From: Clostridiales bacterium
GTDB lineage: Bacteria; Bacillota; Clostridia; Peptostreptococcales; Acidaminobacteraceae
NCBI GenBank assembly: GCA_021107455.1
Contig: JAIOSU010000161.1
Span: 1 to 43,247, forward strand
Reading direction: 5' to 3'
DNA length: 43,247 nucleotides
The notes under the pieces are model-generated. The model saw only the letters and a program-made list of their open reading frames with translations. It had not been told where the DNA came from and made no database searches. Position numbers and translations under genes: made by a program. Shown here in pieces: positions 33,870 to 36,741 of this stretch. Within the stretch, counting starts at the first letter, position 1. Every line of letters begins with the position of its first letter.

Positions 33870-35186
33870 ATGAAGACATTACTTGAAAAAATTCTCAAGG
33901 TGTGTGATCACGCTGAAGTGTATTCAAGGATCATGTTTAGCACGTCTGTGTCAGTTCAGGCAGGAGAAATGCAAGGAATCGAGTCTGAAAAAAAGACGGA
34001 AGTTGCCATAAGAATCGTCAAAGGCGATAAAATGGGTGCGGCTGTTGCAACAAATCTTGATGATGAATCCATTATCGAACGCGCACTGATTTCACTTGAA
34101 AATCAAAAGTCGGAAGCAGTGGAATTTCCAAATGAAAGTGTTGAAAATGTGATCTGCTCATCAGATCAAGTGAAAAATATGAACACGCAGGAGTTGGTGA
34201 GACTCACTTTTGATGTATCGGACAGACTGAAAACTTTTGCTCCGGAAATCACTTCAGGAGTTGAATTTGTAAAAACCGTAAAGAATGTAAAAATGATCAA
34301 TAGTTCAGGTTTTGAAGGAGAATATGACTATACAAACATTGCTGCGCAGATTTATACACTTAATGAACAAGGGTTTTATAGCACTATTAAGGAATATTCA
34401 GGCAGTGATTTACCTGAGATTAAGGATGACCATCTATTGAACATGATTGAACTTCATAAACTGGGCAATCACATGGTAACCCTTGAAAATGAGAAAATGC
34501 CTGTTGTCTTTTCCGGTAATGTAATGGGTTCACTCATGTTGAGAGTACTTGGTGGAGTAAATGGTGGTAATGTATCAAAGAGTATATCCCCAGTTGGAGA
34601 CAAATTAGGACAAAAGCTTTTTTCTGAAAAAATCACAATCCGGGATGACGCGACAATGTCAATGGGTTGCAACTCATATGCATTTGATGATGAAGGAACA
34701 CCGGCACAAAATACAGTAATCTATGAAAATGGTGTTCTCAAGAATTTTTTAGTGAGCTCTGGACAGTCAAAAAAACTTGGCAGGAAGCCCACAGGGAATG
34801 CACAGAAAAGAACGCTTTTCTCAAAGGAAATCGAAGATTCACCCTCAGTTTTTGATACAAACATAATTATAGAAGGTCACTCAATTCCAGATCAGGAGAT
34901 CATTGGAGGAATAAAGAGAGGTCTTTTCATTACAGGAGTGATGGGAGCACATACGGGAAACATCAATCAAGGTGATTTTTCAATGAATATTTCTTCTGGT
35001 TTTTTGATCGAAAACGGAAAGATGATCGGTAAGGTAAAAGGCGCGATGATTGCCGGCAATATATATGATTTGTTCAAAAATGTGGAAGCCATTGGAACAG
35101 AAAAAGAAGTTATGAGGAGTATTTTCTATACAATGGGTTATTCTCCAATGGTACTTTTCAGCGAAGCGAATATAGTTGGTAGGTAA
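33870..35186 (+). CDS. TldD/PmbA family protein (PmbA/TldE-like subunit)
   Basis: 'SFGYDDEGTPAQ'-type segment 'YAFDDEGTPAQNTVIYENGVLKNFL', 'MGAHTGNINQGDFSMNISSGFLIENG'; lacks HExxxH. Confidence 0.9.
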   Translation: MKTLLEKILKVCDHAEVYSRIMFSTSVSVQAGEMQGIESEKKTEVAIRIVKGDKMGAAVATNLDDESIIERALISLENQKSEAVEFPNESVENVICSSDQVKNMNTQELVRLTFDVSDRLKTFAPEITSGVEFVKTVKNVKMINSSGFEGEYDYTNIAAQIYTLNEQGFYSTIKEYSGSDLPEIKDDHLLNMIELHKLGNHMVTLENEKMPVVFSGNVMGSLMLRVLGGVNGGNVSKSISPVGDKLGQKLFSEKITIRDDATMSMGCNSYAFDDEGTPAQNTVIYENGVLKNFLVSSGQSKKLGRKPTGNAQKRTLFSKEIEDSPSVFDTNIIIEGHSIPDQEIIGGIKRGLFITGVMGAHTGNINQGDFSMNISSGFLIENGKMIGKVKGAMIAGNIYDLFKNVEAIGTEKEVMRSIFYTMGYSPMVLFSEANIVGR

Positions 35187-35187
35187 A

Positions 35188-35632
35188 GACAATTTTCCGC
35201 GAAGCGGAAATATTGGGCGACGTGGTGTTTCAATGTTTTGTGAAACGAAACATTGGGCGTAGGTAATTTTTTGTGGAACAAAAAATCGCGTAGGTAAGTT
35301 TCCAAAGGAAACTTACTAGCGCTTCAGCTGACATTTCAATATGTCATTGAAGCGATACTATACTAGCTTTAAAACACAGGAGCCTAAGTGACTATGTTCC
35401 AAATAGTATAAAAAGGAAACTGTTTTGCGCCTCAGCTGACATTTCAAGATGTCCTGTTTGAGAATAGTTTAGTATAATAATCATTAAAAAACTGCTGCAA
35501 ATGAGCTTTTATAGTCTCTCATTTCCAGCAGTTTTTTTCGCTTCAACAACATCTCGAGATTTCAGCTGAGATGCTAGTAAGTTTCCTTTGGAAACTCACC
35601 TACGCACAATGTTTCGCTTCGCGAAACATTGT
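35188..35632. repeat. mosaic inverted-repeat element built of multiple hairpin modules, between convergent genes
   Basis: Tandem hairpins with GCGTAGGTAA linkers on the left; reverse-complement counterpart on the right (35288-35354 vs 35605-35539: 57/67 identical, ungapped). Confidence 0.85.
35486..35538. terminator. bidirectional intrinsic terminator in the centre of the repeat element
   Basis: AAAAAACTGCTG..AAATGAG...CTCATTT..CAGCAGTTTTTTT. Confidence 0.8.
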
Positions 35633-36741
35633 CAATCATAAACAATTTTTTCAATGGTCAGGTTATGAGTCTTCATCAAATCAATGTGACCTTCGGGAGA
35701 CTCATCAAGTTTGTTGTCCTTTATGATTCTGAGCACAGGTCTGAGTGGATGGGAATTATTGTTTTTAAGAACAATACCTTTTCGTCCATCTGAAAGTAGG
35801 ACGTGTGTGCCGGCAGGATAAGGCACTATGCATCTTGAAAAGATGTTTGACAGCTCAAAGTCAAAAAGTCTGCCTGCATTTCCCATGATGTATTCGATCA
35901 CTTCGTTGTGTAGGAACGCACTTCGGTGCTTTCTGTCTGAGGTCATAGCATCATAAACATCCGCCAGCATGACAATTTTTGCATGGGGATGAATGTCATT
36001 ATTTTTTAGTCCGCCTGGATAACCTGAACCGTCAATACGTTCGTGATGGTGAAGTACTATGGTGCGCACATGACTGTTCAGAGTTGTATTCCCAGTAAGA
36101 ATTTCATGGCCATGAACGGGGTGTTGCCTCATCTCTCGCCAGGCATCGTCCGTAAGAGGACCAGGGTGGTCATATAAATCTTTTGAAAAGTATTTGTACC
36201 CCACATTGATCAAGAGAGAGGCAATGGCAATATTTCGGATTTCTTTGATGTTGAGCCCTTTCTTGACTGCGAGCATGATCGATAACACCGCTGTATTGAC
36301 CGCATGTTCATATAGATAATCATTTTCTGATTTGATGTCCATGATTGAAATTTTGAGATCACTTGAATTAAGGATTTCGTCAATGAGAGATTCCGAAACG
36401 TGATCAATGACCTCGAGAAGTTCTTGACCTGAATTGCCATAAACTAGTTGCTGCTTCTGTTTGTTGATTTCTTCAGTGAATCGCTCCATACTATCCTTGA
36501 TATCGAAAACAGCTTTTTTACGGATTTCAGGATTTATGATATCTTTGACTTCCTCTTCTAAAATATCCTCTTCATCAGGATTTTTTACGTAAAGTGATTT
36601 GAATCCCAAAGCTTTGATCCTGGAAATGTTTTTGGAATTGAGGACGACGTTTTTTCTTAGCAATATTTGATTTTTGATATTGACTAAATTTTCAGCGAGC
36701 ATGGTATTGTCTTTTAAAAAATCAAGAGGTATAAAACGCAT
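35632..36741 (-). CDS. HD-GYP domain protein (putative c-di-GMP phosphodiesterase)
   Basis: 'HHHERIDGSGYPGGLKNNDIHPHAKIVMLADVYDAMTSDR' HD-GYP signature. Confidence 0.93.
   Translation of the reverse strand: MRFIPLDFLKDNTMLAENLVNIKNQILLRKNVVLNSKNISRIKALGFKSLYVKNPDEEDILEEEVKDIINPEIRKKAVFDIKDSMERFTEEINKQKQQLVYGNSGQELLEVIDHVSESLIDEILNSSDLKISIMDIKSENDYLYEHAVNTAVLSIMLAVKKGLNIKEIRNIAIASLLINVGYKYFSKDLYDHPGPLTDDAWREMRQHPVHGHEILTGNTTLNSHVRTIVLHHHERIDGSGYPGGLKNNDIHPHAKIVMLADVYDAMTSDRKHRSAFLHNEVIEYIMGNAGRLFDFELSNIFSRCIVPYPAGTHVLLSDGRKGIVLKNNNSHPLRPVLRIIKDNKLDESPEGHIDLMKTHNLTIEKIVYD

Follow-up and report, generated by a model that had tools for sequence, protein, structure and literature searches.

BOX elements of the Firmicute Streptococcus pneumoniae are modular intergenic stem-loops that vary in module number and keep a fixed A-B-C order. 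GTAG-tagged REPs, described as short palindromes with GTAG at the stem foot that lie at convergent and tandem gene 3′ ends, are considered probable substrates of Y1 transposases (RAYTs); their tags supply stop codons, and some families are inserted within other palindromes (PMC3733652). In size, tag, placement, and stop-codon donation, this description also fits the hairpin-filled gap between a PmbA-like and an HD-GYP gene on contig JAIOSU010000161.1 of assembly GCA_021107455.1 (Clostridiales bacterium), whose 43,247 nucleotides we call the window. The first-pass annotation of the window had held that the gap resembles no standard REP, a statement that we do not uphold.

The flanking ORFs end at 35186 (PmbA-like, + strand) and 35632 (HD-GYP, − strand), and between them no ORF of at least 60 amino acids was found; the first pass had likewise noted no coding function. 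The repeats reported there were reproduced when recomputed: 35288-35354 and the reverse complement of 35539-35605 differ at 10 of 67 nt, and 35231-35266 and the reverse complement of 35596-35631 at 5 of 36 nt. A repeat finder returned the arm pairs as 68 nt (I1) and 40 nt (I3), both at 85%. The left-arm linker GCGTAGGTAA occurs in exact copies at 35257-35266 and 35288-35297, as does the zeta core TCAGCTGACATTTCAA at 35324-35339 and 35432-35447. The central terminator-like stem also stood (35486-35505 with 35518-35537, 95% complementary, with an A run 5′ and a T run 3′); a strict terminator consensus scan missed it because its loop is 12 nt. Fold energies of the gap reached z = −14.3 on the + strand and −15.0 on the − strand, and none of 100 shuffles did as well. 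We rejected an assembly artefact, since identity between the arms is only 85% and MAGs deposited separately also contain the family.

The gap is better read as nested hairpin modules common to dozens of loci than as one imperfect inverted repeat (Table 1). From the pmbA side, a beta hairpin encloses alphaT and a gamma hairpin, which in turn encloses delta, epsilon, and zeta; these are followed by an outer epsilon half with a second zeta, the terminator, and an opposing zeta-epsilon-alphaT arm, where a covariance model matched positions 35572-35635 with 59 bits. The nesting of alphaT in the beta loop recurs at three other loci (L039, L101, and L079), and the right half of epsilon alone gave 28 further regular-expression matches elsewhere.

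Table 1. Modules and other features of the gap, in window coordinates
Feature	Position	Strand	Basis
TAGGTAA, linker-like motif closing pmbA and donating its stop codon (TAA; the G002 orthologue has TAG)	35180..35186	+	sequence, orthologue comparison
alpha hairpin CAATTTTCC..GGAAATATTG with GGCG	35190..35219	+	module scan
beta hairpin, 5′ half (ACGTGGTGTTT)	35220..35230	+	module scan
alphaT hairpin CAATGTTTTGTGAAACGAAACATTG, nested in the beta loop	35231..35255	+	repeat finder and module scan
linker GCGTAGGTAA	35257..35266	+	exact repeat
delta hairpin AATTTTTTG..CAAAAAAT	35265..35286	+	module scan, 97% over 35262-35293
epsilon hairpin GCGTAGGTAAGTTTCC..GGAAACTTACTAGCG	35288..35321	+	genome-wide pattern, 0 mismatches
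zeta hairpin, copy 1	35322..35351	+	exact repeat and module scan
gamma hairpin, 3′ half (GCGATACTATACTAGC)	35349..35368	+	module scan, 90%
beta hairpin, 3′ half (AAAACACAGGAGCC)	35369..35384	+	module scan, 81%
sigma spacer (CTAAGTGACTATGTTCC..), common to other loci	35384..35410	+	module scan, 78%
epsilon hairpin, 3′ half alone (outer, interrupted copy)	35413..35429	+	module scan
zeta hairpin, copy 2, orthologue of the sole zeta of G002	35430..35459	+	exact repeat and orthologue comparison
bidirectional intrinsic-terminator-like stem; single copy in the window, also in the G002 orthologue	35486..35537	.	
zeta hairpin, opposing arm	35542..35571	-	module scan
epsilon hairpin, opposing arm	35572..35605	-	module scan and pattern, 2 mismatches
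alphaT hairpin, opposing arm; reaches the HD-GYP stop codon; sole hairpin left in G001	35606..35632	-	

The anatomy of the modules was taken from ~80 loci. The alpha module is a CAATG/CATTG or CAATATT hairpin, beta is GTGTTTGC/GCAAACAC, gamma is GTATGGTT/AACTATAC, delta is AATTTTTTG/CAAAAAAT, epsilon is a 34-nt hairpin of AAGTTTCC/GGAAACTT, and zeta is a weaker CTCAGTTGACAT hairpin. Modules are mostly joined by GCGTAG, which stands at the 5′ foot of epsilon, gamma, delta, and most alpha modules; beta has GACG instead. The most uniform unit of the family is alpha-gamma, a 65-nt double hairpin with sharp ends and more than 40 copies, near-identical examples of which have different flanks. A pattern scan counted 37, 23, and 25 epsilon hairpins in three genomes.

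The family is dispersed rather than single-copy. With the gap as query, BLAST returned 118 matches in ~40 clusters or sites of the window's own MAG (G000), 48 and 46 matches at E 1e-5 in two congeneric MAGs (G001 and G002), and one in a third (G003). G003 holds diverged copies, several of which directly follow the 3′ (CCA) ends of tRNAs within tRNA gene clusters (L097, L167, and L171). BLAST found the family in none of 27 other relatives outside the genus. When 395 genomes of the order were searched with a covariance model, 4 contained it, all from one genus, and in a phylum sample of 399 genomes it was found in none except its own. An exact core pattern run over 84,980 species genomes matched solely the MAGs Kmv40 and LH_M70, and plasmids, phages, and viral contigs gave no match to the family. 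In agreement with the earlier suspicion that the repeat family may be undescribed, no Rfam family scored above gathering in the region (the best E-values, 0.25 and 0.72, were both far below gathering), and a literature search found no description of it. The MAG that contains the window may be a mixture: its window contig shares 97% identity with G001, other contigs share 83-94% with G001 or G002, and L043 and L055 resemble alternative versions of a single locus.

The proposal that the repeats settle at gene 3′ ends was supported. At 64 sites with genes called on both sides, the flanking genes were convergent in 40 cases, tandem in 24, and divergent in none, compared to 35/90/40 for gaps in neighboring sequence (odds ratio 6.2, P 6e-9; the count takes in orthologous sites, and the sites are therefore not fully independent). 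The nearest gene end was a 3′ end at 57 of the 64. Most copies sit past a terminator. Directly 5′ of the epsilon GCGTAG there is nearly always a palindrome, either the local terminator with its terminal T run or delta, and the 50 nt upstream of epsilon have a median fold z of −4.6.

These hairpins bear what may be marks of the family's arrival. The 3′ half of the terminator, ~19-34 nt, is often repeated downstream; when each copy was compared with 34 loci, its own locus ranked first in 17 of 34 cases (mean match score 16.7 versus 8.1). Some of the repeated halves mark the distal border of the element, much as a target duplication would, and others begin a further tandem unit. Nesting is frequent as well: in ~19 interrupted epsilon hairpins, alpha or alpha-gamma begins right after the left foot GCGTAGKTA, and epsilon resumes at its 3′ arm. 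At L112 (440-640, G002:C75), an alpha-gamma unit interrupts a second 5S rRNA 3′ fragment, which has a terminator of its own, and takes the place of ~10 nt of a 5S stem. At L053, L114, and L086, the outer stem of orthologous array-side terminators has changed in its two arms in concert (AAAATAAGAGGCT to AAAACAAAAAAAC, with its complement).

Turnover between close relatives is fast. The orthologous gap measures 445 nt in the window, ~180 nt in G002, and ~34 nt between stop codons in G001. In G001, whose flank is 96.7% identical to the window, the gap is one hairpin; in G002, with a flank ~81% identical, it consists of a delta-epsilon-zeta run and the window's terminator. Because G002 and the window share this terminator and run, the most likely history is loss of the array in G001 and gain, in the window, of the nested insert and the right arm. 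At other orthologous sites, too, arrays vary in size and module order, and two sites are empty in G002, one a composite copy (L051 versus L109) and one where the terminator differs too (L057 versus L132). Gene 3′ ends, including stop codons, are rebuilt quickly by what is probably selfish DNA.

The explanation we favor, and consider reasonably probable, is that the gap is one site of a genus-specific, non-coding, GTAG-tagged REP/BIME-like palindrome family that is moved in trans and placed next to or into existing hairpins. New copies would land beside, or in the stem of, pre-existing hairpins: members of the family already in place, other REP palindromes, intrinsic terminators, and the hairpins that close tRNA and 5S genes at the 3′ end. 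If this happened again and again, with local tandem duplication and deletion, it could produce a nested mosaic, which in the window would take the form of two opposing arrays around a common bidirectional terminator. A role for the host is probably absent or weak: the repeats would be selfish DNA that is tolerated behind terminators and incidentally affects stop codons and the 3′ ends of transcripts.

A serious rival for the nesting and duplications, which we nevertheless judge unlikely as the whole account, does without a transposase: template-switching during replication, or hairpin cleavage and repair at palindromes, would copy near or distant hairpin sequence into stalled hairpins. Junctions at stem feet and loops, replacement of the 5′ stem arm, tandem duplication of terminator halves and of whole units, and the loss of the G001 array with one hairpin left would all fit such events. 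Unguided copying would not, however, be expected to yield 65-nt units so uniform, and with such constant ends, at many unlinked sites.

Movement in trans, as the favored explanation has it, calls for an enzyme, and the genus encodes RAYT genes. A RAYT-type Y1 gene at L076 (1481-2443, G000:C197; further coordinates, L213 1-60 and L103 1535-1673) is flanked by GGGGACAGGT inverted repeats, which constitute a second family (57, 54, 37, and 0 matches in G000 to G003) and fit the GGGGWSAS motif of RAYT-associated inverted repeats. Some GGGGACAGGT copies enclose a GTAG hairpin array to form composite elements, and several arrays lie between two such repeats, as at L109; the repeat surrounds a minority of arrays, and the window gap has no copy of it. 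Directly 5′ of the L076-type RAYT, G001 has half an epsilon hairpin, and G002 has an array at the corresponding place; neither arrangement was seen in G000. Presence of a Y1 gene failed as a predictor of the family: such a gene occurs in 15 of the 19 genomes examined from the taxonomic family and is equally common in relatives that lack the repeats. We infer that the hairpins move as single strands through a RAYT-type Y1/HUH transposase acting in trans, and go no further than this because the alpha-gamma unit was missing from every Y1 or reverse-transcriptase locus searched.

Besides the lack of alpha-gamma at these loci, the even spread of Y1 genes, and the capacity of GTAG to pair with the 3′ foot, two points count against the favored explanation. 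The repeat that flanks the main RAYT is a different one, GGGGACAGGT, and duplication of half of the target is not a known outcome of IS200/IS605-type insertion. A further candidate, which we consider unlikely and hold only tentatively, is hairpin-targeting mobile DNA of a class of its own, in which small double hairpins would recognize existing hairpins, above all intrinsic terminators and RNA-gene 3′ ends, duplicate the 3′ half of the target or replace its 5′ arm, and nest into their own copies, all through a non-RAYT enzyme.

The hairpins themselves are conserved by compensatory change. Within the foot tag, G33, T34, and G36 are invariant and A35 is kept in at least 90%; the TAG of the foot can pair with CTA of the 3′ foot, and both positions hardly vary. 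Among 75 distinct sequences, 98.5% of stem cells were paired and 22 of 28 stem pairs had changes on both sides. Double-changed cells numbered 206; shuffles gave 45 and slid controls no more than 32. Fitting the alignment to the structure tilts these counts in its favor, but the margin is large. Non-Watson-Crick cells comprised 114 G-T and 4 A-C, or 18 and 4 when three G-T-rich pairs were left out. Since G-T lies far above A-C, it is apparently the GTAG-bearing strand that folds, either as RNA or as single-stranded DNA.

Strong hairpins, compensatory changes, one-strand G-T pairs, and 3′-end placement could also be the signature of a structured RNA, or of a regulatory element in the 3′ UTR, conserved for a host function such as termination or mRNA stability. 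We regard this as improbable, as array size and module order vary at orthologous sites, most copies lie past a terminator, Rfam has no match, and the family is confined to one genus. Still more doubtful is a classical MITE, derived by deletion from a DDE insertion sequence and bounded by terminal inverted repeats. The copies are dispersed, non-coding, palindromic, and near genes, but the sites read showed neither constant terminal inverted repeats nor a short target duplication of fixed length, and the modules combine freely; the single MITE-like fold-back element of the first-pass annotation becomes a mosaic of modules found separately elsewhere, with ends and lengths that vary between sites. 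Equally remote is spread by reverse transcription of element RNA at RNA 3′ ends: the sites fall where terminated transcripts and tRNAs have their 3′ ends, but no RVT_1 domain was found in the window's own MAG, which is only ~96% complete. DNA uptake sequences paired in terminators (PMC1852404) were also considered but seem unlikely, as the units here look too long and too modular.

Several described systems share features with the family. Mitochondrial double-hairpin elements and GC clusters likewise consist of small double hairpins that move and build up between genes, but they are organelle elements of unrelated sequence (PMC4478555). BOX elements (PMC3049150), likened here by module structure alone, are modular intergenic stem-loop repeats of variable module number; their module order is fixed, whereas the modules of the present family nest and reverse. 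The terminal inverted repeats of TIRYT/RAYT genes (GGGGWSAS; PMC3733652) have a counterpart at L076, where the GGGGACAGGT inverted repeats of the RAYT are themselves a repeat family, but most arrays of the present family, including that of the window, lack GGGGACAGGT.

The likeness is closest to GTAG REPs, BIMEs, and REPINs with their RAYTs (PMC3733652, PMC3116915). Both comprise palindromes of 20-40 nt in many copies with GTAG at one foot, lie downstream of genes in convergent and tandem but not divergent gaps, donate stop codons through their tags, form pairs and clusters in both orientations, and, in some REP families as here, lie within other palindromes. In described REPs the GTAG is unpaired, whereas here it can pair with CTA of the 3′ foot. 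Also unlike GTAG REPs, the present family nests with loss of the 5′ arm of the target, is accompanied by duplicated terminator halves, and, at the loci checked, has no RAYT with these hairpins as its own ends. The text of the GTAG REP survey (PMC3733652) names no Firmicutes or Clostridia, and the family extends GTAG-tagged palindromic repeats to a clostridial genus. Its landing tracks, beside and inside hairpins, with a copied terminator half and nested modules, are unusually clear, and the open question of how REPs spread is therefore testable by comparing close relatives. Our verdict is a mobile, REP-like palindromic family with unusual nesting at terminators, whose closest known kind is the GTAG-tagged REP/BIME.
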